Of a stretch of DNA of 38,553 nucleotides, positions 6,366-36,239 are shown piece by piece; positions within the stretch are counted from its first letter, which is position 1; each line of letters starts with the position of its first letter. Origin of the DNA: a virus. The notes beneath the pieces are model-generated. The model made no database searches. It was not told the origin of the DNA and saw nothing but the letters and a program-made list of their open reading frames with translations. The DNA lies in the IMG/VR virus record IMGVR_UViG_3300043409_001397, positions 1-38,553 of that record. One strand, written 5' to 3'. Made by a program: the position numbers and the translations under genes.

Positions 6366-7589
6366 TTATTTATTACGCAAGAAATCTGGAATTTTTAACT
6401 CTACTTTCTCTGGAACATAGTCTTTAAGAATTTGGTTCAATTTTAGTTTCATTTTTTCTTTGGAAAAATTTCTTTTAATAATATCACCTCCTACTTTAGA
6501 TTCTTTTAGATAAGTTTTATGATTTTTAAACATATCGTTTAATCTAAAACTAAATTCTTGATAGTTAGCTTCAAACCAATGCGATTCGGGAATCATTGCT
6601 TTCCAAGCAGTACTTGGGTGAATTTGTTGTAAACTACCGCCAATTAAAGTATAATATTTTTCATCTAAAAAATCCAAATATCCACTATGTTTTGGAGCAA
6701 TGATTGGTTTACCAGTAATAGAAAATTCTAATAAAGGTCTTCCAACAGATTCTCCTCTTGTCAAAGAAATCATAGCTTTAACTTTTGGATGATTATATAA
6801 TTGATTCATTTGTTCGTCACTTAGCTCACCGTGTAACAAATAAACATTTGGTAAATTTTTTGAATTAAAAGTCTTTTGAATAGATTTGATATATTCTTCG
6901 TAGCTATATTTATCTACTTTGGAATGATTACCCATATTAGACTTTAAGATTAAAGCAGGTTGATTTGGTTTGTTTTTAAATGTTTCATAAAACATTCTAA
7001 TCATATTACCAATATTCTTTCGGTCTTGTCCAAAGACTTGACCACCCGTAAATTGTCCAACGGATAAAAATGCAAATTGTTCTTTGATATTCGATAAATC
7101 AAATTCCGAAGTTACTTTATTATTAAAGATATTTTCATTATATCCTTCAAATAACACTTCAATTGGTTTTGTTGTTTTTAACTCTGCTCCTTGTGCATCG
7201 GTAAAGATAGTCTTTTCAAACACATCTTTATTAAATTTTGATGGAACAATGGTTAAATCAATCGTATTTACCTTTGAAATCCATTCGGAAGGAACTAAAG
7301 TTACTTCGGTACTTGAAGTAATTAAAATATTTTTTTCGGTTCCGTATAACTTCATTTCATCGGGCATACCAATATGAATGTAAATATCAGGAGCGTGAGT
7401 AATATTTTCAACAATATACTTATCTAATTTAGTATATTCTCTATCGGGATTATTTCCCCATTTAGTTTTAATTAATTGAATATTCCATTCGGGTTTTAAT
7501 TCAATAATAGATTCAACTAAATCTAATGACTTTAGTCCATATCCACTGATTGATTTAAACGGCGATGTAATCAGGACATTTGTACGCAT
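6366..7589 (-). CDS. GT4-type glycosyltransferase (GT-B fold, 407 aa)
   Basis: This is a predicted retaining GT-B glycosyltransferase of the glycosyltransferase-4 group. The C-terminal half carries the family's E-x7-E motif, Glu280 to Glu288 (ESVGRPLLE), followed by TGKPIIAPKHSG, which fits the sugar-nucleotide pocket. The N-terminal half begins with a strand-loop start (NVLITSPFKSISGYG) typical of GT-B enzymes. There is no signal or membrane anchor, so it is cytoplasmic. It overlaps the upstream glycosyltransferase gene by 19 nt and the two are probably co-translated. Substrate unknown: modified phage DNA, host surface sugars and a protein are all possible. Confidence 0.85.
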   Translation of the reverse strand: MRTNVLITSPFKSISGYGLKSLDLVESIIELKPEWNIQLIKTKWGNNPDREYTKLDKYIVENITHAPDIYIHIGMPDEMKLYGTEKNILITSSTEVTLVPSEWISKVNTIDLTIVPSKFNKDVFEKTIFTDAQGAELKTTKPIEVLFEGYNENIFNNKVTSEFDLSNIKEQFAFLSVGQFTGGQVFGQDRKNIGNMIRMFYETFKNKPNQPALILKSNMGNHSKVDKYSYEEYIKSIQKTFNSKNLPNVYLLHGELSDEQMNQLYNHPKVKAMISLTRGESVGRPLLEFSITGKPIIAPKHSGYLDFLDEKYYTLIGGSLQQIHPSTAWKAMIPESHWFEANYQEFSFRLNDMFKNHKTYLKESKVGGDIIKRNFSKEKMKLKLNQILKDYVPEKVELKIPDFLRNK

Positions 7590-8851
7590 GATAGAGTATA
7601 TTTTGGTTGTGGTTTAAATTTTTGGATAGTTTCTTCGATTGATTCTACAATAGATTTTACCATATTATTTGAATCATAATTATCTAAAGCGATTTGTCTA
7701 AATCTATCAGAATCATAAAAATACTCTCCTGAATGGAAATGAGAAAGTGTTGACGTTATGTCTCTTGCTTTTGTATAGTATTGATATATGTATGGGACTT
7801 CTATCGAACTTGTTAGCGTCTCTGCTCCGATACCAAGAGTCAAATCCCATGAGCCGCAATTTTCAAGTTGTTCAATCATTCCTCCATGATAAGGAGCAAT
7901 AAATGGTTTTCCACAAGCAACCGCTTCTGTTAAAGATAATCCCCAACCTTCGTTAAATGAGGTATTAATAATACAATCACTCAAATTGTATAAATATCTC
8001 ATTTGAGTTTCGTCGAATCGTTGATTGGTTAATAAAATCTTATTTTTATAATCCATTCCTTTGAATAACTCTTCGACTAACTTTGGAATATGAAATCCTC
8101 CTAATGGTTGTGTATGTAAAATCAAACAAATAGAATCATTCGGATATAGTTTGATAAAATCTCTATAACCTTCTAATAGAGTTCCAATATTTTTTCGGTG
8201 CATATTTACCGAATTGAACAAAAATACTGTTTCGGGAACTTTATTATTAAAAAGTGTATTTTGAAATAATTTAAAATCATTATATTCATCGCTATTAGAA
8301 TCAATAGGATAAAACTTATTAATATCTACTCCATGAGGGATATGTTTAATAACTTTTTGATTTACTTTATCTCCCAAAACTTCTCTTACCAAAGTATCAG
8401 TTAATTTAGAGATATTTAATAAAGCATCACAAGAATCATAATATGGTAAGTTAAAATGTGGAGCAGGTTCGGCATCCCAAATATTATACCAAATGATTGG
8501 ATATTTTTGTGAAATGACTCCTTGATAGTTAAAGAATTGAATATGATGTCTTGGGTCGGACATCAATAAAATAGCGTCTAAACCTTCTCTTTTGATAATT
8601 TCTTCAAATAATTCAATTGTCCCATACCCATTCCATTGAATTTCTTCTACCGAACACTTAACTCCTGTTTCTTTAGTGATTCTTTCACTATAATCAAACT
8701 TTTGACCATGATTAGGAGTTCTTTCAAAAGACCCTACAATAAGATAATCGTATTTATCAATTGATTTATATACAATTTCTTTAGCCATATTAGCAACTCC
8801 ACTTTGGGAATAAATGGAATCGGTAATTAATAATATTCTTCTTTTATTCAT
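7571..8851 (-). CDS. GT4-type glycosyltransferase (GT-B fold, 426 aa)
   Basis: The N-terminus RRILLITDSIYSQSGVA has the glycine-containing loop of GT-B enzymes. A middle segment WYNIWDAEPAPHF (121-133) and HIPHGVDINKF (170-180) mark the acceptor/linker region. The C-terminal domain has the E-x7-E motif, Glu301 to Glu309 (EGWGLSLTE), followed by ACGKPFIAPYHGG. It is a soluble cytoplasmic enzyme of unknown substrate. It is related in fold to the next gene but not a close copy. The ATG follows AATAAATAAAATTTA. The gene lies 21 nt after the DUF551-like gene and ends inside the second glycosyltransferase gene. Confidence 0.87.
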   Translation of the reverse strand: MNKRRILLITDSIYSQSGVANMAKEIVYKSIDKYDYLIVGSFERTPNHGQKFDYSERITKETGVKCSVEEIQWNGYGTIELFEEIIKREGLDAILLMSDPRHHIQFFNYQGVISQKYPIIWYNIWDAEPAPHFNLPYYDSCDALLNISKLTDTLVREVLGDKVNQKVIKHIPHGVDINKFYPIDSNSDEYNDFKLFQNTLFNNKVPETVFLFNSVNMHRKNIGTLLEGYRDFIKLYPNDSICLILHTQPLGGFHIPKLVEELFKGMDYKNKILLTNQRFDETQMRYLYNLSDCIINTSFNEGWGLSLTEAVACGKPFIAPYHGGMIEQLENCGSWDLTLGIGAETLTSSIEVPYIYQYYTKARDITSTLSHFHSGEYFYDSDRFRQIALDNYDSNNMVKSIVESIEETIQKFKPQPKYTLSCVQMS

Positions 8852-10279: not shown

Positions 10280-11314
10280 TTATTTTTTATTATAGTTTTT
10301 GTAACGTTCTTCGTAATCTAATGCTTTTTTGATTTCTTTTGTAACATCTTCTGTTTTGTATCCTGCTCTCATTCTATATTTAAAGGCGTTTAATTTACAA
10401 AAGATTTTTACTTCTTCTATTCCAAAAAGATTTTCCATCATTTTGATTACTTCGGGAAATACTTCTTGGTTATAATGAGATTCTTTTTGGATTAATTGGT
10501 TATAAGATTTTTCATAATAATCTGCTTTTTGATTACAAGCATTAATCTCATTATGAATAAACTCAATATTTTCCTTTGATTTGATACTCATGGTATAATA
10601 ATACCATTTATGTAAATCGTCTAATGTTGAAAATCTTTTGTTAAGAGCGTCTTGAATTAATTGAACTGTAATTGAGAATCCATAACCGTTAGTTTCTACC
10701 CATTTAGTGATATATTCTTTATTCAATAAAATAATATTCTCTCCGTCATAGTTTCCCTCAAAAAAATAATCATAAAATCTAAACTCGTCATCTTTTATAA
10801 TGTCATAATGAGTTCCAATATATTCTTGTAGAAGTTCAAAGAGATTATCTTCTACATAATTTAATTTATCTTCATAAGAATATGCGGATAGTTCTTCCAA
10901 TTCATCTCCACACATCTCATTAATTACCCAATATTGAAACTCGTGAAAACTTTCAAAATTTTCATTGATATATTTTTCAACTTCTTGTTTGGTAATGTCT
11001 TTAGTTTCGTGCGTTGTATATAATTCACCTACAATATAAGCTCCTGTTGGAAATTCACATTCAAATATTGCATCAAAATAATTCTTTAATACATATTCCA
11101 AACTATAATTATTAAAAGTATTTTCATATCTTTTTTTAATATGGAATCTTATTACCTTTTCTATGATATTCTTATATTCTTCGTTACTCCTTTTCATAGA
11201 ATTTCTAATCTCTTCAATTTTATCTCTATTTTCTTCTTTTAGTAATAAACCTCCTTCGGTAGAGGTTGTTGTCCAATGTGGGATTTTTGTTTTTGTTACT
11301 TCTTTTTTGTCCAT
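10280..11314 (-). CDS. Large hypothetical protein (344 aa)
   Basis: This is the largest unrecognised protein in the window. It starts with a basic, disordered-looking stretch (MDKKEVTKTKIPHWTTTSTEGG), continues with a charged helical region, and has a very acidic, aromatic middle (about residues 85-195). It ends in Lys/Glu-rich helices (about 245-344) that could form coiled coils. No catalytic or nucleotide-binding motif was found. It overlaps the gene upstream by 19 nt. An opposite-strand hydrophobic frame at its 5' end is a shadow of the Lys/Glu-rich coding. Confidence 0.78.
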   Translation of the reverse strand: MDKKEVTKTKIPHWTTTSTEGGLLLKEENRDKIEEIRNSMKRSNEEYKNIIEKVIRFHIKKRYENTFNNYSLEYVLKNYFDAIFECEFPTGAYIVGELYTTHETKDITKQEVEKYINENFESFHEFQYWVINEMCGDELEELSAYSYEDKLNYVEDNLFELLQEYIGTHYDIIKDDEFRFYDYFFEGNYDGENIILLNKEYITKWVETNGYGFSITVQLIQDALNKRFSTLDDLHKWYYYTMSIKSKENIEFIHNEINACNQKADYYEKSYNQLIQKESHYNQEVFPEVIKMMENLFGIEEVKIFCKLNAFKYRMRAGYKTEDVTKEIKKALDYEERYKNYNKK

Positions 11315-11730
11315 TCTTTTATTTGTTTTTCGTCTATATGATAACCATTTAAAAGTCTAATTAGTTCATCTTTTGATAAACTATCTAAAAATATTTTAGC
11401 ATCTATTAAATTATTTTGTCTAAATTTAGAAACAAGTGATAATAGTTCTTTGGGATAATCATCTTCAATATTCTTTTTGATATATTTAGCAAATATTCTA
11501 TGATTAGGAAGTATCTCTAAATACATTTTGTAAATATTTTCTTTTGGTAATTGTTTTCCTTTTTGAATGATATTAATTTGTTTAACTAACTTTCTATGTT
11601 GAGCTAAAAATTTATTAACAATAAATGGTTGAAAATCATTTTGTTCATCTTTTGTTAAATCTTCCCATTTAACCTTTCTTTCTGTTAGATAATTAACAAA
11701 GACATAAGGAGGAGTTTCTTTTCTATCCAT
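11296..11730 (-). CDS. Hypothetical basic helical protein (144 aa)
   Basis: No family is recognised. The protein is Lys-rich and mainly helical. The C-terminal segment SLSKDELIRLLNGYHIDEKQIKEWTKKK looks like a small helical domain of the SAP/LEM size that could bind DNA; this is a guess from pattern only. It overlaps the upstream gene by 8 nt and the 344-aa gene by 19 nt. Confidence 0.72.
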   Translation of the reverse strand: MDRKETPPYVFVNYLTERKVKWEDLTKDEQNDFQPFIVNKFLAQHRKLVKQINIIQKGKQLPKENIYKMYLEILPNHRIFAKYIKKNIEDDYPKELLSLVSKFRQNNLIDAKIFLDSLSKDELIRLLNGYHIDEKQIKEWTKKK

Positions 11731-12449: not shown

Positions 12450-13388
12450 TTAGATTAAAAGTTCGGAAATAAATGCCATAAAGTTTAATTCTTTATCATG
12501 GGATGGTTTACTTTGATAAGAATAAGTATTTAATAAAATTGTAGTTGCACAATATTGACCTTCTTTTACCCATAAATCCAATTTTTCAAATAATTCAGAA
12601 TACAATCTTTCATAATTCTTAACATTAGAGTTTGCTAATAGTTGTTTTACTTGTTGATAAGTTATATCAGGATTATTATTTGCAGTTAATAAATTAATAA
12701 GCTCTTTGATTAAGAGTTTAAATTCATTTTCTTTATAAATAAACTCTCCTGTCAAACAACAATTTTGTAAATGGACAATTGATTGGCGAATGTCAAAATC
12801 AGCATCTTTAATAATTTTAGCAATATTGATTACATTTGGTTTATCGGGATATTTCTTAGATTTTGGTAACTCGATTTCTTCTTGATTTAAAATATCAACC
12901 AATCTTCTAATCAAAGAGTTCAATTCGGGTTTCTCAAATTTTAAAATATTACATCTACTAATAATACCATCTCCAATTTTTTCAATATGGTTGGTAGTAA
13001 AAATAAATCTAACACCACTTGATTGATATTTTTCAATAAATGCCTTTAAACCGTCTTGAGCCACTAAAGATAAACCATCTGCTTCGTCAAATATAACAAT
13101 TTTAATATTTTTTTGAGATTTTCTTGAACAAAAGTCCATTACTTTTTCTCTAATATTATCAATTGATGTATCAATAGAAGCATTGATATAAAACTCTTGA
13201 GCATTGAGTTTAGAGCAAAGTAATTTAGCTAAAGTAGTTTTACCTAAACCAAATGAACCTTCTAATAATAAATGAGGAATATCACCATTTGAAACGTAGT
13301 TCTCTAATGTTTCTTTGATAGAATCTTCAATGATATATTCTTGAAAAGATTTGGGTTGATATTTATCAACCCATAATACATTTGACAT
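12450..13388 (-). CDS. Sliding-clamp loader ATPase subunit (T4 gp44 / RFC-like)
   Basis: This is an AAA+ ATPase that opens the sliding clamp and loads it onto primed DNA at the replication fork. The N-terminal WVDKYQPKSFQEYI is the conserved RFC-type opening. Walker A is GSFGLGKT (44-51), Walker B is IVIFDEAD (97-104), and the SRC arginine-finger motif (Ser144-Arg145-Cys146) follows. The C-terminal part is a helical collar region. The length (312 aa) matches T4 gp44 (about 319). Together with polymerase and a probable clamp gene upstream it forms a T4-style replication set, but here a chaperonin pair lies between clamp and loader. No obvious gp62-like partner was identified. Confidence 0.92.
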   Translation of the reverse strand: MSNVLWVDKYQPKSFQEYIIEDSIKETLENYVSNGDIPHLLLEGSFGLGKTTLAKLLCSKLNAQEFYINASIDTSIDNIREKVMDFCSRKSQKNIKIVIFDEADGLSLVAQDGLKAFIEKYQSSGVRFIFTTNHIEKIGDGIISRCNILKFEKPELNSLIRRLVDILNQEEIELPKSKKYPDKPNVINIAKIIKDADFDIRQSIVHLQNCCLTGEFIYKENEFKLLIKELINLLTANNNPDITYQQVKQLLANSNVKNYERLYSELFEKLDLWVKEGQYCATTILLNTYSYQSKPSHDKELNFMAFISELLI

Positions 13389-14431: not shown

Positions 14432-16108
14432 CTAAGTTCTATCTACAACTTGTTCAAATTGTGTTCCAAATTCACTATCATCTCTTTTGGTGTAAATTAC
14501 ACCACCTGTTGTAATCAATGAGCCACAAACCGATACTGCGTTTTCCAAAGCACATCTTGTAACTTTATATGGGTCAATAATTCCTCCTTCTAAACCATCT
14601 ACAAAGATATTTTCTAAAGGATTATATACTAACCAATTGGTTGTATCATTTTTAATAATACCCATATTCATGTAAATATCATCCTTGTCAATGCCTGCAT
14701 TATCAAGAATTTTAAAGAATGGTTCTTTAATAGCCTTTCTTACAATTTCTGCTCCGATTAATTGATGTTTATTTGTAAAGATGGTTGTATCTTCAAAATT
14801 AACATTAGACGAAGCTCTTAATAAAGATGTTCCACCTCCTGCCAATACTCCTTCTTCCAAAGTACATTTACACGCTCTTAAAGCGTCATCTGCTCTATCG
14901 AATCTTTCTCCGATTTCAACATCGGTTAAACCTCCGATATTAATTAAATGAATACCACCTAAAAGATTTGATTTACGTTCTTGTAAGCGAGTTTTTTCAA
15001 AGATAGATTCTGCTTGTTGAATTTCATAATTAATCATCTTAATTCTATTATCAACAGCAGTTTTATCTCCTTTTGCATCAATAATGATTGTAGAAGATTT
15101 TTTAATAACTGCTTCACCTGCTCTTCCTAAAGAATCTAATGTAGCATTTGAAATAGAAGTTCCTGTTGTTGGGGAAATAAATGTTGCTCCTGTTAATACT
15201 GCAATATCTTGTAAGAATTTAGTCTTATTTTCACCATTCATAGGAGCATCTACAATACATACTTTGAATACTCCTTGCATTTTAGTTCTAATAATCTGTT
15301 GAAGAGCCAAATCAGATGTTGTATCAACAATAATTAGTAGAGACTTTCCTGTTTGAGCAACAGGATTCATAATATTGGTATATAGAGCTTTAATAGACTC
15401 AGGTGTATCAAAATTTGTATCAACTACTAAAATGTAAGGGTCGATTAATTTACAAATTCCGAGTTGTTCTTCGGTTACAAATAATTCAGATTGCAAACCT
15501 TTTTTAAACTCAACACCTTCTACAACTTCGATTCTATCTTCGGGATATTTTCCTTTAGTAATTTGAATAAGACCATCTTTTCCAGACTCCAATACGGCTG
15601 TTGAAATAAGATTTCCAATACTTACATCTCCATTAGCCGATAAAGTACCAACTTTTCTTAACATTTCTTTTGCAGTATCTTCTGTCAATTCAATTTTAAG
15701 AGTATTAAGATAGTTTAAAACTTGTTTAGAAGCCTTATCAATACCTTTTTTTAACTCAACTGCATTGATTTTATTGTCAGAATTAATATGAGTCAATGCT
15801 TCTTTCATCAAAGAGTAAGCAAGTAGGGTTGATGTAGTAGTTCCATCTCCCGCTTCTTCGGACGTACCGACAGATGCTTTTCTCAAAAGTCTTACTCCAT
15901 ACTCCTCAACAGGATTTTCTAAAAACATTATGTTTTTTGCAACAGTAACTCCATCTTTAGTTAGTCTTAATCTTCCTTGTAAATCCTCAAACATAATGTT
16001 TCTACCACCAACACCCATAGTAGCAGTAATCATTCTACTTGCATCTTCGATTCCTTTAAATAAAATACCTCTTGATTCTTCTCCTTTTAATAATTCTTTA
16101 ACTAACAT
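14432..16108 (-). CDS. groL: Chaperonin GroEL (Hsp60 family), phage-encoded
   Basis: This ATP-driven chaperonin subunit is expected to form a ring that encloses and folds client proteins in the cytoplasm. It is full length (558 aa; E. coli 548). Landmarks: GVGGRN and TKDGVTVAKNI in the first equatorial segment, the ATP-binding GDGTTT (87-92), and the ADDALRACKCTLEEG... AGGGTSLL block that carries the catalytic Asp near the start of the second equatorial segment. The first motif differs from the usual GPKGRN. The C-terminus (EQVVDRT) lacks the Gly-Gly-Met repeats common in bacterial GroEL. A GroES-like gene lies just upstream with one 67-aa gene between. The divergence argues against a recent capture from the host. 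Confidence 0.95.
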   Translation of the reverse strand: MLVKELLKGEESRGILFKGIEDASRMITATMGVGGRNIMFEDLQGRLRLTKDGVTVAKNIMFLENPVEEYGVRLLRKASVGTSEEAGDGTTTSTLLAYSLMKEALTHINSDNKINAVELKKGIDKASKQVLNYLNTLKIELTEDTAKEMLRKVGTLSANGDVSIGNLISTAVLESGKDGLIQITKGKYPEDRIEVVEGVEFKKGLQSELFVTEEQLGICKLIDPYILVVDTNFDTPESIKALYTNIMNPVAQTGKSLLIIVDTTSDLALQQIIRTKMQGVFKVCIVDAPMNGENKTKFLQDIAVLTGATFISPTTGTSISNATLDSLGRAGEAVIKKSSTIIIDAKGDKTAVDNRIKMINYEIQQAESIFEKTRLQERKSNLLGGIHLINIGGLTDVEIGERFDRADDALRACKCTLEEGVLAGGGTSLLRASSNVNFEDTTIFTNKHQLIGAEIVRKAIKEPFFKILDNAGIDKDDIYMNMGIIKNDTTNWLVYNPLENIFVDGLEGGIIDPYKVTRCALENAVSVCGSLITTGGVIYTKRDDSEFGTQFEQVVDRT

Positions 16109-16129
16109 AAGTTATATATTTATTTTTGT

Positions 16130-16333
16130 TTATTTATTGATTGTGATAAGATGATACTCTCCTTCTTTTGTAGTTCTTGTTTGTAAATAGACATTATCAG
16201 AAATCTTTTTAATATATCTTTTACAAAGTAAGTCGTCTAAATTAACAAATTCGGGAAAGTTATCTTGAGTACTTTCTAAATTTTCTTTAATTTCAACCGA
16301 ACCGTTAGGTCTTATCAAAATATTTGATTTCAT
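16130..16333 (-). CDS. Hypothetical protein between groES and groEL (67 aa)
   Basis: It begins MKSNILIRPNGSVEIKENL and ends GEYHLITINK. It is a small, probably beta-rich soluble protein with no recognised family. The frame is open to 16405, but that would overlap groES by 71 nt. The ATG at 16331-16333, 1 nt after the groES stop and preceded by AATAAC, is the better start. Its position inside the chaperonin pair suggests co-expression and perhaps a functional link to folding, which is inference. Confidence 0.68.
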   Translation of the reverse strand: MKSNILIRPNGSVEIKENLESTQDNFPEFVNLDDLLCKRYIKKISDNVYLQTRTTKEGEYHLITINK

Positions 16334-16334
16334 G

Positions 16335-16658
16335 TTATTGTACTTTTTCAAAAGTTGTTTCGTCAATATGACTTTCTTTAATTTTTGAAACAACATAATC
16401 TTCATTAGTTGTTAAAAACTCTACATTATCATAAGTAGTTCTTAAAGAACTCATCAATGGCATAATAATATAATCACCTACTTTAATTGATGTTACTTCT
16501 TCTCCAATATCTAATACTAAACCATAAGTAGTAGTATCTTCTTTAGTTTCGGTAACAATATCTAACATACCAATTTGTTTTTTACCCATTTTATTAACCC
16601 TTTTACAGATAATATTCTTTTTTAAGGCTTTTAATGGACAATCCTGTAATTCATTCAT
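16335..16658 (-). CDS. groS: Co-chaperonin GroES-like protein (107 aa)
   Basis: This is the predicted lid of the GroEL chamber. The order of elements fits GroES/gp31: a first strand LKALKKNIICKRV, a mobile-loop region with a short hydrophobic patch (IGMLDIV, about residues 29-35), then GLVLDIGEEVTSIKVGDYIIMP (47-68). The last matches the conserved G-x-V-x-x-(V/I)-G ... VKVGD-x-(V/I) signature. The C-terminal strand is EDYVVSKI. The N-terminus carries about ten extra residues. Sequence identity to bacterial GroES looks low, but a full-length groEL two genes downstream strongly supports the call. The leader AACAATAAATT precedes the ATG. Confidence 0.82.
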   Translation of the reverse strand: MNELQDCPLKALKKNIICKRVNKMGKKQIGMLDIVTETKEDTTTYGLVLDIGEEVTSIKVGDYIIMPLMSSLRTTYDNVEFLTTNEDYVVSKIKESHIDETTFEKVQ

Positions 16659-16661
16659 AAT

Positions 16662-16958
16662 TTATTGTTTGTTTTTGTTAAAATTAATTGAAATATTTAC
16701 TTTTTTTGGAGTTGTGATATGTACAGTTATTAAAATATCCGAATCGTTTTCTTTATCAAAATCTACCGTATAATAATCAAACTCTCCAATTTCTAAATTA
16801 TTTAATTTATAAAACTTCTCAAGACAACTATAAAAAATGCTATCTTCATGTATGTCTTTACAATAGAGTTTATCGGGAAATTGTATTGTATTTATTTTAC
16901 TCTGCCATTCTCTCAAATAGCGATAAGATATATTATTCATTTTATTTTCAATGTTCAT
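16662..16958 (-). CDS. Hypothetical protein between clamp and groES (98 aa)
   Basis: No family is recognised. The N-terminal half is helical and aromatic; the C-terminal half alternates strands (FDYYTVDFD, ILITVHITT, VNISINF). The first ATG (16958) overlaps the clamp gene by 11 nt. A second Met at residue 7 (16940), preceded by GAAAATAAA, would leave a short gap and is an equally good start. Confidence 0.68.
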   Translation of the reverse strand: MNIENKMNNISYRYLREWQSKINTIQFPDKLYCKDIHEDSIFYSCLEKFYKLNNLEIGEFDYYTVDFDKENDSDILITVHITTPKKVNISINFNKNKQ

Positions 16959-17679
16959 CGTTTTCGGGACAAATGTTATAAATTGCTTTAACGTCGTTAC
17001 TATTTGTAAATTCTAATCTAATAACTTCATGGCTTAAATGTAAATAAGATTCTTGACAATCTTTGTTGGCACTAAAGATATTTACAAAATCTTGAACCCT
17101 TAATATACTATCAACATTATTTTCATTTAGTTTAGTTCCCTCAACTTTAAATTTTACCTTAACTTTTTTTCCAAGATTGATAATAAAGTTATCTTTCTTT
17201 GGATTATACTTTAAAGTAAACGTATCTTGAAATTCATATTTTTCATTAGAAGCCATTGATAAAAAATCATCAATAAAATTCTTATCAAAAATGATAGTAG
17301 CATCCCATTGGTCATCATCAAATAAAAAACATTCTTCAAGAGAATTAACATGAAGGATAGTTGCTTCATCCATTAGATAATATTCTAATGTATATTTGTC
17401 GTCTTTAACAATTAATTTATCATCATCAATTGATAGTTTAATATCTTCGTTTAATTTTGATAAAGTTTTATTAAATAACTTAGCATCACTTACACAAACT
17501 TCACAATCTTCTAATTCAAAATTATTTGTTTTTACATATCCTTTTATTGATTCAGAACTATTAATAAAGGGAATAGTGATTTCATTAGATTCTACTACTA
17601 ATTTATAAGTTAATGGTTCATTAGCAGGTTCTATAACACCAATCTTTTTTACTAAATCTTGTAATAATGATTTTTTCAT
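16948..17679 (-). CDS. Probable DNA polymerase sliding clamp (T4 gp45 / PCNA-like)
   Basis: The role would be a ring-shaped processivity factor for the phage polymerase. The 243-aa length is close to T4 gp45 (228). The section around residues 61-107 (VCVSDAKLFNKTLSKLNEDI ... DKLIVKDDKYTLEYYLMDEA) has the helix-then-strands pattern of a clamp repeat. A second, similar strand-rich half begins with FDKNFIDDFLSMAS. Similarity is structural in feel rather than motif-based, so gene order matters. It lies in the replication cluster, one gene after the polymerase and upstream of the clamp-loader ATPase. The acidic composition is normal for clamps. Confidence 0.7.
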   Translation of the reverse strand: MKKSLLQDLVKKIGVIEPANEPLTYKLVVESNEITIPFINSSESIKGYVKTNNFELEDCEVCVSDAKLFNKTLSKLNEDIKLSIDDDKLIVKDDKYTLEYYLMDEATILHVNSLEECFLFDDDQWDATIIFDKNFIDDFLSMASNEKYEFQDTFTLKYNPKKDNFIINLGKKVKVKFKVEGTKLNENNVDSILRVQDFVNIFSANKDCQESYLHLSHEVIRLEFTNSNDVKAIYNICPENDEH

Positions 17680-17684
17680 ATTAT

Positions 17685-18140
17685 TTATAATAATGGTTTA
17701 GCAATTTCAATTAAATCTCTAAAGTCTTCTAAGAATTTGTCTCTAATTTCTTCTGTTCTGAATGATAAAACTTGCTGTGCATGAAAATACATAGAAGGGT
17801 TTATATTGTTTTTATGAATGTATAAGCAATATTTATCTTCTAAAGATTCCCAATCAGGTTTCCATCCTCGATTATATTTATCTCTCCATTGACATAATTG
17901 AGACAATGCTAAACAAGCCTTTGTTTCTTCTTCTGTTGGGAATACGTTTTCATTGTTTCTATTAGACTCTCCTGTATATTTGGCTATGTAAGAATCTTCT
18001 GTTATATAACATCCTTTAATCTCTCCAAAATCTTCCCATTGTGGAGATTTTTTCTTAGTAATTCCTAAAGATTTAATTTGTTCAACTTGTTGTTGAGTTA
18101 GTTCTATTTTAGAACCTTCTATTTGAATGTAATTTACCAT
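17685..18140 (-). CDS. Conserved-looking hypothetical protein (151 aa)
   Basis: The C-terminal two thirds (CLALSQLCQWRDKYNRGW ... QVLSFRTEEIRDKFLEDF) resembles a protein often seen in Bacteroidetes phages and prophages; its function is unknown. The N-terminal part (about 1-35) ends in a Lys-rich linker. It overlaps the polymerase gene's end by 7 nt and ends 5 nt before the clamp gene, so it is co-expressed with the replication proteins. There is no membrane or signal segment. Confidence 0.75.
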   Translation of the reverse strand: MVNYIQIEGSKIELTQQQVEQIKSLGITKKKSPQWEDFGEIKGCYITEDSYIAKYTGESNRNNENVFPTEEETKACLALSQLCQWRDKYNRGWKPDWESLEDKYCLYIHKNNINPSMYFHAQQVLSFRTEEIRDKFLEDFRDLIEIAKPLL

Positions 18141-20788
18141 ATTATTTTAATTTTAACTTTTCTATTCCAACCACTTGATAATTTCTTTGGGTTAAGATTA
18201 ACTGTTCCCCAATTTAATGTATCGTAGAATTTTTGAATTTTGGTCAATAACTGATTATCAAAGTTTTTGTTTTTATCTAAATATTTTTCAACTATTTGTT
18301 CAATTTCTATTGGATATTCTTCATTAGCAGGAAACCCAATAGAGTCTATTTTATAAGGATTTGGTTTTAAGTAACAATAAGCAACAGGGTCTCCAATCTT
18401 TAATTCACTATAATCTTGATTTTTTTTGTAAAATTTGATAAAATCATTATATCTAATACTTGCTTTGTACTGAGCAGGTGTTTTTGGCTGTGTTTTTGAG
18501 AATATTTGTCCCAATGGTGCTTCGTAAGAAACATATTTACTCAATTCTTCTCTTAAACCAACTGGTAAAGATAACTCTTTATAATCACAATTCAAAATAT
18601 AATTCTTAAAATCAACCACCATTTTATCTATTACTTCTTTTGTACCATTTAATAGAAGTGTATTAATCATTTTCATTGAAAAATCTCTAAATAATGGTGC
18701 AAAATTTGATTTCATTAAATCCAATCCTTTATAATCAAACTCACTTCCTTTTTTGATTGGCGAACCTTCTTTTCTTACTAAGTAACAAGCATATTTTTTC
18801 TTAGCCGACCAATAAGCTCTTTTGATTACATATTCTGGTTTGATGTAATAATCATGTTTATCTATATTAAAGGCTTCTTTGGTTAAATCATTGTAATAAG
18901 CATTTAATTTATCCATCATTTCTTGTGCAAAACTTTCAACAATTGGGATAATTCTTTCATCTTCAATAGTCAAAATATCTTGATTTAATCTATGAGAAAT
19001 AATTTTACTACATTTAACAAAGATTGAGTCTGTATCAGATGCAACAATAAAATCTTCATCTTTAGTTCCCAATTCTTGATTCATTTTATCATTAACATAA
19101 TTAATTGTTGATTTAATGATAACTTGACCAGTCATGGTAGTAGCTGAGGATAACCATTTTCTTCCATCACAATATCTAAAAGATGGTAAAATCAATACTC
19201 CATATAAAGAGTTACAAAAAGTCTTATAAACCGATTGATAAGTATCATAAAACTTAGCTTTATCAAAATCTAATTCATGTCTTGCTTTAAGCATGAGATT
19301 TTTATAATAAGCTCTTTTTTCAGTCCATTCTATCAATACTTCGTTTAAAATAGACTTTTTAGACATATCAAATATGATACCATTACCAGAGATAGACCAA
19401 TTTCTTTGATAAATTTGTTTTTTTAACTTAGATAGTTTAACTTTTTTACGAGTTCCATCTAATTTTTCAATAGAAATATCTTCACCAAGTATATCACAAT
19501 CTCTTAAATTCAAATAATCTAACCCAAAAGATTCATTGTAATCAACATTTTCAACCAAAATACGTCCAACAAGCGTTTCTAAACCACTATTTAAAGACAT
19601 AATGTTAGTTGGGTAGAGTTGTCTTAAATCTAAGTCGGTAAGCCAATCATGTAATCCAACTTGAACATCTTTTACATAAGCACCTTTAAAACTTGATTCT
19701 TCTTCCTCTTCTTTTGTTTTGACTTTTTGATAATTCTTTTTTAAAGATGGGTCATTTGTTTGTGGTTTATTTGGAGAAACAATTCCTTTTCTTTTTAAGA
19801 ATGTAAAGATTACTCCATCCAAAACTACACTTGAAAAATAAATAGACTCATATTCTACGTGTCCAAAGTGACAAATTGTGATAGCTAACTCTAAAAATCC
19901 TAATTTAGCATCAAGTTCTTCAAGTAAGGTAACGTCATTTAAGTTATATTCGATATATTTTTCAATATCTTCCTCATATAATTTATCTAAATTACCAGTT
20001 TCGATTTTTCCTTTACCAATCTCTTTTTTACAAATATAATCTAACTTATAACTTGGTTGAACCTTTGGTACAAACTTTTTATGAAGTAATAAATAGTCCA
20101 TACTTGCAATACCTGCTAACTTAATAGGTGTTGTATCAGAATTATCTTGTTCAAGTACTATTCCTAATGGAGATAAACGTTTTGCATTATCAATTGATAG
20201 TTTTTTGCTAATGCGATAATAGAGATATGGGACATCAAAAAATGATGAGTTATATCCTACTATCACCGTTGGGTCAATCTCTTCCCATAAGTCAAGAAAA
20301 GCCTTTAAAAGCAAGGTTTCTTTTTTATAAGGAATGACTATTTTATCGTCGGATTCGTATTTTGATATTTTTTGAGCTTCGTCTAAGATTAAAACATATT
20401 TTTTATTAGTAGTTTTATCCAAGATTGCAATTGAAGTGATTTTGTTTAATGCTTTTTTAATATTTGCTCTATTCAAAGTTCCTCCAATTTGAGTCTCAAT
20501 ATCAAAAAATACTAATCTATGATGAGATGGAGGAGAATCTTCGGATAAATATTTATCGGTTAATGTTCTAAGAACAGGTGAAATATCTTGTTCGTGAACA
20601 TCTAAATCCCCTTTTTGATAATTTTGTGGTTGGATTTTTCTAAAAGTATCTCCAAATAACCCTACATATTTTCCATTAGGGTCTTTTCTAAAAGCATAAT
20701 CTTTAAATTCTTCAATAATCCAACCTTCCTTATCATCTCTAATATAACTTACTTTGTTTCTTTTGTCAACGTGGACTGCTTGATACAT
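18134..20788 (-). CDS. Family B DNA polymerase with 3'-5' exonuclease (T4 gp43-like)
   Basis: This is the phage replicative polymerase. Exonuclease motifs: FDIET (95-99), GYNSSFFD (178-185) and YNLND (281-285), all with their acidic residues. Polymerase motifs: A, DLDLRQLYP (385-393); B, KTFCNSLYG (522-530); C, SDTDS (584-588), where both catalytic aspartates are kept although the usual Tyr-Gly before it is replaced by Ala-Ser. A KKKYACYL element follows, then the thumb region. Length 884 aa against about 898 for T4 gp43. The enzyme looks intact, with no intein or intron. It heads the replication cluster and ends in a 7-nt overlap with the 151-aa gene. Confidence 0.96.
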   Translation of the reverse strand: MYQAVHVDKRNKVSYIRDDKEGWIIEEFKDYAFRKDPNGKYVGLFGDTFRKIQPQNYQKGDLDVHEQDISPVLRTLTDKYLSEDSPPSHHRLVFFDIETQIGGTLNRANIKKALNKITSIAILDKTTNKKYVLILDEAQKISKYESDDKIVIPYKKETLLLKAFLDLWEEIDPTVIVGYNSSFFDVPYLYYRISKKLSIDNAKRLSPLGIVLEQDNSDTTPIKLAGIASMDYLLLHKKFVPKVQPSYKLDYICKKEIGKGKIETGNLDKLYEEDIEKYIEYNLNDVTLLEELDAKLGFLELAITICHFGHVEYESIYFSSVVLDGVIFTFLKRKGIVSPNKPQTNDPSLKKNYQKVKTKEEEEESSFKGAYVKDVQVGLHDWLTDLDLRQLYPTNIMSLNSGLETLVGRILVENVDYNESFGLDYLNLRDCDILGEDISIEKLDGTRKKVKLSKLKKQIYQRNWSISGNGIIFDMSKKSILNEVLIEWTEKRAYYKNLMLKARHELDFDKAKFYDTYQSVYKTFCNSLYGVLILPSFRYCDGRKWLSSATTMTGQVIIKSTINYVNDKMNQELGTKDEDFIVASDTDSIFVKCSKIISHRLNQDILTIEDERIIPIVESFAQEMMDKLNAYYNDLTKEAFNIDKHDYYIKPEYVIKRAYWSAKKKYACYLVRKEGSPIKKGSEFDYKGLDLMKSNFAPLFRDFSMKMINTLLLNGTKEVIDKMVVDFKNYILNCDYKELSLPVGLREELSKYVSYEAPLGQIFSKTQPKTPAQYKASIRYNDFIKFYKKNQDYSELKIGDPVAYCYLKPNPYKIDSIGFPANEEYPIEIEQIVEKYLDKNKNFDNQLLTKIQKFYDTLNWGTVNLNPKKLSSGWNRKVKIKIIW

Positions 20789-28016: not shown

Positions 28017-28414
28017 TTTTGAATTAACTTTAAAATTTTTCTTAATTCGTTAATTGATGGACAAGAGCCTTGAAATAAGTATTCTTCATTACCATACTTA
28101 TCATATTTGTAAATAATAATATCATCGTGTTTAAAATAATCTATATAAACACCATCTTTTCGATAAACATGGTCAAAAACATTAGATAATTCAAATCCTA
28201 ATTTTAAAATATCATCTTTATCAAGATATTTTGTTCTATAATTAGTTTTAAACCAATCTTCATACAATTCACCCTCGGTGCATATTAAATTAAAATCCAT
28301 CGCATTTAATATTCTTTCTTCCCACTCGGAATTATATTGACGAACCTGCTCACATTCATATCCAATAAAAATGTCTTCTATATTTGGAGTATAATATTTT
28401 TTATCGTTTTTCAT
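28013..28414 (-). CDS. Hypothetical acidic protein (133 aa)
   Basis: The protein starts MKNDKKYYTPNIEDIFIGYE. The KYYTPxxEDxxxGYE opening with a later KYLDKDDILKLGFE resembles a family found in Bacteroidetes phages, whose role is unknown. The frame extends four codons further to a TTG (28426). The ATG at 28412-28414 is chosen, giving a 14-nt overlap with the NUMOD-type gene. Confidence 0.72.
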   Translation of the reverse strand: MKNDKKYYTPNIEDIFIGYECEQVRQYNSEWEERILNAMDFNLICTEGELYEDWFKTNYRTKYLDKDDILKLGFELSNVFDHVYRKDGVYIDYFKHDDIIIYKYDKYGNEEYLFQGSCPSINELRKILKLIQK

Positions 28415-29132
28415 AAGTAAATACAAATCCTTTTGTTGATTTTGATAAATGTTTACAGTTATTCATAATTGAGTTATAATCAATTTTTGTTTCTTTACAC
28501 GCTTGATTAACGTTTTCGTATTCTTTAATAAAATTACCTTGTTTATCGTATTGATATATTTTCTTATGTCTTACAATATTAAATTTAGAAATATCTAATT
28601 TATCAACTTTTTGTTTTGAAAAAATATAATCTAAATTTGGAGAAACTTTATTGGTTTTTAAACATAAACGAATTTTGTAATCCCAAATACCTGTTTCATT
28701 GGTCACTTCAAGAACATTTCTAAAGCTTTTGATATAGTTTCCATCTAAATCGTATTGATGAACATAGTAATCAGGGTCTCTTACTGCAATTGTTTCGGGA
28801 TATTTATCTGCTTTTGTGAAAGAAAGAACATATCTTTTATGAACTACTTTTTTATCTGAAATTTTTACTGATAAATTATTTGGTAAAATATTTAACTCTT
28901 TGGAAGCAATTTTAATGTTTGGAAACTCTTTTAGATATGCTAATGTAATAGAATCATAAAGATAAACTGGTTTACTGTTGTAATGTCTATTGCCGTCGGT
29001 GGAATTTACGCAGTAATCATAACAATCTAAAATTCTTTGATATTCTAATGGAAAAGTATCTTTTGGAATGATAAATCCATTTACTGTAACATAGTCACCT
29101 AAACAAGGTTTTACTGATTTGTTGTCTCTCAT
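28401..29132 (-). CDS. Protein of NUMOD1-like repeats without a nuclease domain (243 aa)
   Basis: Two clear NUMOD1-type units occur in the C-terminal two thirds, starting VHQYDLDGNYIKSFRNVLEV (about 127-146) and IYQYDKQGNFIKEYENVNQA (about 194-213). Each is followed by a short helix pair and the second by KGFVFTY. A more diverged unit begins PVYLYDSITLAYLKEF (about 54-69). NUMOD1 units are DNA-binding modules normally attached to HNH or GIY-YIG homing endonucleases; no catalytic motif of either type is present. It could be a remnant of a homing endonuclease or a free DNA-binding protein. Its first 50 residues are unrecognised. Confidence 0.72.
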   Translation of the reverse strand: MRDNKSVKPCLGDYVTVNGFIIPKDTFPLEYQRILDCYDYCVNSTDGNRHYNSKPVYLYDSITLAYLKEFPNIKIASKELNILPNNLSVKISDKKVVHKRYVLSFTKADKYPETIAVRDPDYYVHQYDLDGNYIKSFRNVLEVTNETGIWDYKIRLCLKTNKVSPNLDYIFSKQKVDKLDISKFNIVRHKKIYQYDKQGNFIKEYENVNQACKETKIDYNSIMNNCKHLSKSTKGFVFTYEKR

Positions 29133-34271: not shown

Positions 34272-36239
34272 TTAAAAATCCTCTGCTAAAAAATTATTGT
34301 TTGTTGTATTTAATTTACTTGTCACTGCGGATATTCCGTAATCACTAACTTTTTTTTCAAAGAAGTTAGTTTTTCCTTTTAGAGCCAAGTTTATCATAAA
34401 GTCAAAAGGGTTAGTAGAGTTAAAATGTTTTTCATAACCCAATTCATTTAATAAACCATCTGCTACATATTCTACATATTGACGCATTAAGTTACTATTC
34501 ATTCCAATTAACCCTACTGGTAATGAGTCTGTACAGAACTCTTTCTCTATATTAACTGCGTCCAAAATAATTTCTAATACTCTTTCTTTAGTTGGTTTAT
34601 TTTCAATGTGATTTCTGTAAAGTAAACAAGCGAATGATGTATGAGAAGCTTCGTCACGAGATATTAATTCATTTGAAAATGTTAATCCCTTCATTAAACC
34701 TCGTTTACCTAACCAATATATAGCACAAAAAGAGCTTGAAAAGAAAATTCCTTCTACTACCGCAAATGCAATCAACCTTTCTACAAATGAAGAACTGTTA
34801 ATCCAATTCAAAGCCCATTCTCCTTTCTTTTTAACCGATGGGATTGTTTCTAAAGCTCTAAATAAATTATACTTTTCCAGAGAGTCTTTGATATAGGTAT
34901 CGATTAATAATGAATACGTCTCGGATTGACCTGTTAATATACCATTGAAACAGCCCATATGATTTAATGGTTCATTGAAACAATAAGTCATTTCTTCTTT
35001 ATTCAAATCTTCGATAGAAATAACTTTGGTCAAACGTTTCTTTTCTTTTATTTTTGAATCATATTTCAACTTTAATCTATTTGGATGAAATCCAAGTTGT
35101 ATTAACTTATTTACATCAGTGATTGTAATATATAAGCAATACACAGCATTTGTGTTATACTCTTTCAAAATTCTATCTGAATCTGGTAACATGGAAACTC
35201 CTTCGTGTTTTGCTATCTTGATATTAGAATGTACTCCAAGTGTAGTAAGCATTAATTTAACTTGTTGTAAGAACTCAAGATTAATGTTAGTTATTTGGAT
35301 AGCAGTTCCAGTTTTTTTAGAATTATAAGAAATTGTACCGTCACTATCAGATAATCCTTCTAACCATCTCAATTTAGTATTTATCGAATAATTTATTGGG
35401 ACAAAAAATTTATCTTTATTGATATGGTCGGTTACATAGAATTTAAACTTATCAATTTTATTAGAGTTTTCTTTATGATTGAAATCTAACAGTAAGTGTA
35501 AGTTTTCTTTTTCGCCATATAATTTAATTAAAGGATATTTACCCCTAATAACAGTACCATCTCCGCAAAAGAAACCATGAATATACGGGTTCTTAAAATC
35601 ATCTGGGTCTGTATTGTCGATTATCGGTAATTTGAATTTAGAAATGACATCTCCAACTACCAAATCTTTAGTTTCGATTCTAATATCTTTACAAGATTCT
35701 GGGTGTTTTTGATTCCCTTTTCTAATCAACCATTTATGACCATCTGTACAATCTAAATGAGAACCATCGCTTAGATTAACTCGGTACAATTTTTGAACAC
35801 CTGTCTCTTTTACAACAACTTCACTAAATTCTTGACCATTCCAAACATTTACATTTTGATTGAGTAGATTGATGATAGGTATATTTCCTTTGTCTGTTAA
35901 AACTTGTGTATCAGACGAAACACAATGAATATTTTCAATCATAACTTGAAACCCATAATATGCCTTTGCTTCTGCATATTGTACTTCTTTAAGAAAATTA
36001 ACTGCTAAATTTTCATTAACTATTCCATCAGATGCACTAAAAAACCCAATTACATTTTTTATGAAATATCTTTCGTTTTCTGTTAATTTATGTTCCCAAT
36101 CATACAAATCACTCGATAAATCTATTTCCTCTGCTGTCCAAAATGTAGATTCTGCTTGTTTATATGCTTCCCAAATATCGGAATGTTCGATTGGAAACAT
36201 GGTAAATCTATGAGGGTTTTCTTTTAAAATTTTTTCCAT
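34272..36239 (-). CDS. nrdB: Ribonucleotide reductase small subunit precursor containing an intein
   Basis: The 655-aa precursor consists of N-extein 1-105, intein 106-438 and C-extein 439-655. After splicing the product would be 322 aa, normal for NrdB. Iron ligands visible in the exteins are Asp40 (EEID), Glu102 and His105 (ENIH), Glu496, Glu530 and His533 (DEASH). The radical Tyr is Tyr442, four residues after the splice junction. The C-terminal tail (NNNFLAEDF) fits the NrdA-binding peptide. The intein lies between His105 and Ser439, so unspliced protein cannot assemble the diiron-radical site. The gene starts 7 nt after a 60-aa gene and is followed at once by nrdA. Confidence 0.96.
34926..35924 (-). 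mobile_element. LAGLIDADG homing-endonuclease intein in NrdB (333 aa)
   Basis: Block A starts at Cys1 ([13 protein letters not shown]). Block B is [10 protein letters not shown], with Thr60 and His63. Two dodecapeptide endonuclease motifs, [10 protein letters not shown] (114-123) and [10 protein letters not shown] (187-196), both keep the catalytic Asp. Block F is [14 protein letters not shown], with His322. The C-terminus reads NGILTGQ, then Ser of the C-extein. The penultimate His and terminal Asn of standard inteins are replaced by Gly and Gln. A terminal Gln is known from the iridovirus (Chilo iridescent virus) ribonucleotide reductase intein, so splicing is plausible. Splicing and endonuclease parts both look intact, suggesting a mobile element. 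Confidence 0.93.

Follow-up and report, generated by a model that had tools for sequence, protein, structure and literature searches.

Does a phage genome encode a complete chaperonin of its own, cage and lid together, and do the two halves still fit each other? This question is raised by a groES-like and a groEL gene lying close together in a viral contig of 38,553 nt from IMG/VR (hereafter called the window), which is probably a genome fragment. It comes from a T4-type lineage of uncultured phages, whose hosts are probably Bacteroidota.

On the minus strand (14432..16108) we found the full-length groEL gene that had been predicted, coding for a group I chaperonin of 558 aa. Profile searches assigned the protein to Pfam Cpn60_TCP1 (E = 1.9e-53) and to the PHROG GroEL family phrog_5725 (9.4e-117), and the full-length three-domain Cpn60 sequence and fold are present according to the profiles and the predicted model. 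It exceeds some of the NCBIfam GroEL subfamily cut-offs and lies under the TIGR02348 equivalog cut-off (430.8 of 582.1 bits). The predicted model (pLDDT 90.9) has its best matches in E. coli GroEL, with a TM of 0.89 to the GroEL-ADP state. The motifs GDGTTT, DDALRA and GVGGRN named in the original prediction are all present, and the Gly-Gly-Met tail is indeed absent. By alignment (E. coli numbering) the residues for ATP binding and hydrolysis are kept (D52, D87, T89-91, D398, G414, G415 and D495), and all checked catalytic residues are intact despite a divergence of about 60%; near the ATP site P33V and K34G are exceptions to this conservation. The window GroEL also differs at the inter-ring positions R452, S463 and V464, which vary among its relatives. 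As a separate observation, R452, E461, S463 and V464 are poorly conserved in viral GroELs (L018-L097) and conserved in cells, and for this reason ring pairing may differ across the whole phage group. Its fold and ATP site place the window GroEL within the Cpn60 family, where it is a variant at the apical site.

The second gene (16335..16658, minus strand) codes for the predicted GroES-like co-chaperonin of 107 aa. It scores 27.8 bits against Pfam Cpn10 (cut-off 21.1, E = 2.7e-6) and matches the PHROG GroES family phrog_3188 (5.5e-9), while it stays under the NCBIfam equivalog cut-off; a weak match to the head-morphogenesis family phrog_931 (9.4e-5) was observed as well. A search with the single GroES sequence gave no match in phages or viral contigs and noise only among solved structures. 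The protein is too divergent for such a search, and its detection needed family profiles together with the alignment of its relatives. The structure prediction proposed earlier for this protein gave a Cpn10 barrel (pLDDT 78.9) with a flexible mobile loop, of low confidence at residues 26-34. The best Foldseek matches of the model are all Cpn10 (best E = 1.2e-5), and its VIA Z values reach 10.7 for Cpn10, 8.6-8.8 for gp31 and 7.1 for the first non-Cpn10 chain. Both the GroES and the GroEL model were built with alignments of relatives, and because these alignments fed them, the models show fold compatibility more than independent proof. An alignment with the relatives revealed that the roof hairpin of GroES is gone: at its site (residues 52-62, GEEVTSIKVGD; 16473..16505, minus strand) the window protein has 9 residues, as against 18-21 in 61 of 61 relatives. 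T4 gp31 is likewise roofless, and the gp31 complex has a wider opening (PMC6318259).

The two genes share one minus-strand gene run. They had been described as two genes apart; we found that only one small gene separates them. The 91-aa open reading frame listed there overlaps groES by 71 nt and probably has a wrong start, the likely real one being the ATG at 16333, directly after the groES stop, which leaves a 67-aa gene without assigned function (16130..16333, minus strand). Its 91-aa reading belongs to no family in Pfam or PHROG, and a search of 95 phage loci gave no match to the gene. A small gene at this place is common to the window and Callevirus (L012:2199-2471), with no sequence match found between the two.

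All further genes of the neighbourhood lie on the minus strand as well. Upstream of groES follow a 98-aa protein with no family found in Pfam or PHROG (16662..16958), a 243-aa probable sliding clamp (16948..17679) and a family B DNA polymerase of the gp43 type identified by profile searches (PolB, 18134..20788). The name sliding clamp derives from the position after PolB; the product is homologous to the conserved gene after PolB in Microcystis phage Mel-JY01 (3e-7) and in the relatives. Downstream of groEL we found the large clamp loader subunit (gp44 type, 12450..13388; phrog_168, 7.5e-61), the small one (gp62 type, 11296..11730; phrog_225, 4.4e-13) and two glycosyltransferase genes (6366..8851), which are syntenic downstream in the relatives. 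T4-type replication genes of the gp43, gp44 and gp62 types are thus all present, and no structural genes were recognised in the 38.5-kb window. In the relatives the order is PolB, clamp-like gene, GroES, GroEL, clamp loader, small clamp-loader subunit and two glycosyltransferases; of 80 loci, 44 have PolB upstream of groEL and 62 have the clamp loader downstream, many of the loci being truncated by contig ends. A T4 Gp23-type capsid gene was found in two syntenic relatives, G001 (160.9 kb; gene at 111549-112877, 1.2e-75) and G004 (2.1e-64), both of which also have a contractile sheath. Among cultured phages Mel-JY01 gave the best PolB match, and it has Gp23 as well. In Mel-JY01 69 bases separate the clamp-like gene from the clamp loader behind it, the chaperonin cassette is absent there, and no match to GroEL or GroES was found anywhere in its 190 kb. 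From this empty site we infer an insertion of the cassette (or its loss in Mel-JY01) at a defined site of T4-type genomes.

Regarding the host, Shine-Dalgarno sequences were found at 3 of 47 starts in the window, where 0.9 were expected by shuffling, and at 8/19, 5/11, 10/18 and 6/6 starts in Vibrio phages; cultured Bacteroidota phages score low too. The low signal fits a Bacteroidota host rather than proving one. Elsewhere in the window (both minus strand) we recognised a ribonucleotide reductase small subunit split by an intein-like insert (34272-36239), with reductase matches at residues 24-115 and 439-647 and matches to intein splicing and LAGLIDADG endonuclease domains between them, and a 243-aa protein with repeats of NUMOD1 (28401-29132), which is typically found in the DNA-binding region of homing endonucleases.

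The original prediction had further assumed that phages are known with one half of the chaperonin only, GroES or GroEL. This is wrong, since cultured, published and contig examples of both exist. GroES and GroEL are annotated together in Cellulophaga phages phi38:1 and Calle_1 and in Flavobacterium phages immuto and elemo. Marine et al. are said to have described the viral GroES/GroEL gene order in 2017 (ISME J). We searched 15 GroEL-bearing records filed as phage over their whole length for Cpn10 and found it in 10 (immuto, SJC03, DAC16, elemoB, Calle_1, four Vibrio phages and one probably bacterial contig); this search did not find it in EL, Mx1, phi14:2, a TM7 phage and a 735-kb phage. In the Bacteroides phages SJC03 and DAC16 an unannotated GroES (L004:5724-5987 and L008:2224-2487) directly precedes an unannotated GroEL, and the GroES of SJC03 is roofless. 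The record 'Acinetobacter phage MD-2021a' (L007, CAKLQH020000021) was set aside: it looks like bacterial chromosome filed as phage, its GroEL being 96% identical to chromosomal Acinetobacter GroEL and its neighbours being bacterial housekeeping genes. Among the 80 viral contigs most similar in GroEL, 75 carry GroES, about 70 of them directly upstream; the contigs were chosen for this similarity and the fraction is no rate for all phages. That some phages have both GroES and GroEL was stated in print in 2020 (PMC7185714), and a Maribacter phage was reported with both (PMC11590407). A phage GroES-GroEL pair as such is therefore not new but known and common.

What sets this pair apart is the altered contact between lid and cage; neither this nor the loss of the roof hairpin had been noted in the original prediction. 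In the apical helices H and I of the window GroEL (residues 240-280; 15269..15391, minus strand) we observed the changes L234T, L237M, E238N, E257L, V264R (R274 of the window protein, codon 15287-15289), N265T and R268Q (E. coli numbering), to which Y199L and Y203L of the apical surface are added. The canonical site for GroES and substrate (L234, L237, V264, N265, Y199 and Y203) is thus not kept and reads T, M, R, T, L and L. Residues 234, 237 and 264 are known contacts holding the GroES IVL tripeptide (PMC3514286). N265 and E257 are unchanged in all 160 comparison GroELs (80 viral, 80 cellular), and position 264 is hydrophobic in all 160. A change at 264 alone had been considered as a unique feature and was dropped, as Calle_1, phi14:2 and elemoB differ there too. 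On the side of the lid, the mobile loop of the window GroES (residues 22-44; 16527..16595, minus strand) has a two-residue insertion and an acidic D33, it includes IGMLDIVTE where the consensus is GxIIxPD, and the protein has neither a hydrophobic IVL-like tripeptide nor a roof hairpin.

Of the 160 pairs compared, three have a charged residue at GroEL 264, and these three, and no others, are also charged in the GroES loop core. They are the pair of the window (R in GroEL, D in GroES) and those of two Callevirus phages (E in GroEL, R in GroES), so that the signs are opposite in the two lineages. Across 128 hydrophobic GroEL columns the window has 3 charged residues and Calle_1 has 2, and 264 is the only one shared. 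The chance of such a coincidence is about 8e-5 with Callevirus counted as one lineage, a value that rests on two lineages and was computed after the pattern had been noticed. For this reason, and because both partners evolve fast, we take the coincidence as a strong hint rather than proof. The exact counterpart of the acidic residue is uncertain because it sits in an insertion. The contact surface has thus been rebuilt in cage and lid alike, as if the two worked with each other only.

The same changes could also mean that binding was lost, since N265A in E. coli GroEL blocks GroES binding (PMC3514286) and alanine or a charged residue at position 25 or 27 of GroES abolishes it in the same species. 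According to this main rival explanation the phage GroEL functions alone, like that of EL, the GroES-like gene is decaying or has taken on another role, and the contact residues of both partners have drifted because binding has ceased to matter. L234T, V264R and N265T strike the GroES contact, and the GroES scores reach only 20-28 bits. However, GroES is an intact reading frame at the same operon position as in the relatives, with barrel and flexible loop kept; the charges gained are complementary and occur in the same pairs; and phage EL, in which no GroES is detectable, keeps N265. We therefore regard a loss of lid binding as unlikely. Still less probable in our view is a mixed use, in which the phage GroES would recruit the host GroEL like gp31 and the phage GroEL would be capped by host GroES or act alone. 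The missing roof and the weak head-morphogenesis match of the window GroES would suit such a role, but its loop is unlike any cellular GroES loop in the set, all of which are hydrophobic, whereas the window GroEL would offer them R264, T234 and T265.

Finally, we analyzed the origin of the pair. An exact-peptide search with the window GroEL alone found no relative, and among the GroELs examined its identity is at most 40% to viral and 37.7% to cellular ones. In a tree without other long branches it falls inside an all-virus clade with 100/100 support, and AU tests rejected a placement with Bacteroidota (P = 0.001), the comparison that had been proposed earlier, as well as with all cellular GroELs (P = 0.004). 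On this evidence the ancestry of GroEL is viral. With about 4 changes per column its branch is very long, which leaves the exact neighbour unsure, and long-branch effects are possible. The divergence of GroEL was faster than that of the genes beside it: identity among the relatives is 62% for GroEL, 49% for PolB and 46% for the clamp loader, and identity between the relatives and the window is 38%, 37% and 33%, respectively. A recent copy of the host groESL operon, although groES precedes groEL as in bacteria, is hardly credible given the low identity of the nearest cellular GroEL examined, the AU tests and the phage synteny shared with relatives together with the empty Mel-JY01 site.

Taken together, we consider it fairly probable that the window encodes both halves of a group I chaperonin belonging to the phage itself, which would serve as a private, co-evolved cage for the folding of phage proteins. 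The phage GroEL would assemble into ATP-driven rings, and the roofless phage GroES would cap them, so that the phage would have a folding cage that does not depend on the host; without the roof, its chamber is probably wider and open at the top. The likely main client would be the large Gp23-type capsid protein, besides other phage proteins, a suggestion drawn from the relatives since no structural gene was recognised in the window fragment. The full private pair would then do what T4 does with gp31 and host GroEL. Because the contact is rebuilt (V264R and the acidic loop insertion), the pair probably no longer swaps partners with host GroES and GroEL. The self-contained folding chamber of the original prediction is thus plausible: the window has both halves, structure prediction gives a GroES barrel for the 107-aa protein, and neither gene looks recently host-derived, GroEL having been tested for this. 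More tentatively, the pair may be an orthogonal chaperonin, in which a charged contact replaces the near-universal hydrophobic one, the partners recognise only each other and a dedicated open-topped cage acts beside the host system, Callevirus having possibly done the same independently with opposite charges.

What is new here is the rebuilt contact of this pair, a variant among known phage GroES-GroEL pairs, which are widespread yet little studied; the phage chaperonin structures that we found in the literature (EL, OBP and AR9) are of lidless types. T4 needs gp31 because its capsid protein is too big for the normal cage, and a T4-type phage that brings both cage and lid allows this need to be studied in a complete system. 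Should the coupled change in charge reflect a private contact, orthogonal GroE pairs would have arisen in nature on two or more occasions, a proposition open to direct testing and of use in work on GroEL specificity.

Compared with known systems, the window resembles phi38:1, Calle_1, immuto, elemo, SJC03 and DAC16 in having both genes together, and phi38:1 and Calle_1 share its order of groES, small gene and groEL. However, the GroELs of these cultured phages are only 31-38% identical to the window GroEL, immuto has a family A polymerase unlike the family B polymerase of the window, the Callevirus and elemo genomes measure 60-73 kb, and the examined stretches of the cultured pair-bearing phages did not show the T4-type polymerase neighbourhood. 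The IMG/VR T4-type contigs (L018, L028, L087, L093 and others) carry GroES-GroEL between PolB/clamp and clamp loader, followed by two glycosyltransferases, like the window. Unlike it, they have a GroES with roof and hydrophobic loop and a GroEL with a standard apical site, and their GroELs show among themselves the higher identity given above. T4 itself has no GroEL of its own, and gp31 uses that of the host. The T4-type replication genes are common to T4 and the window phage, and gp31 shares with the window GroES the fold, the missing roof hairpin and, in the solved gp31 structure, a chain of 107 residues. The chaperonins of EL (gp146), OBP and AR9 are phage-encoded GroEL homologues with the ATP site kept, like that of the window, and work without a co-chaperonin (PMC9598537). 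The EL genome gave no Cpn10 match, whereas the window carries Cpn10 and so differs from the lidless phiEL type, and its GroEL is far closer to group I GroEL than the EL, OBP and AR9 chaperonins are.
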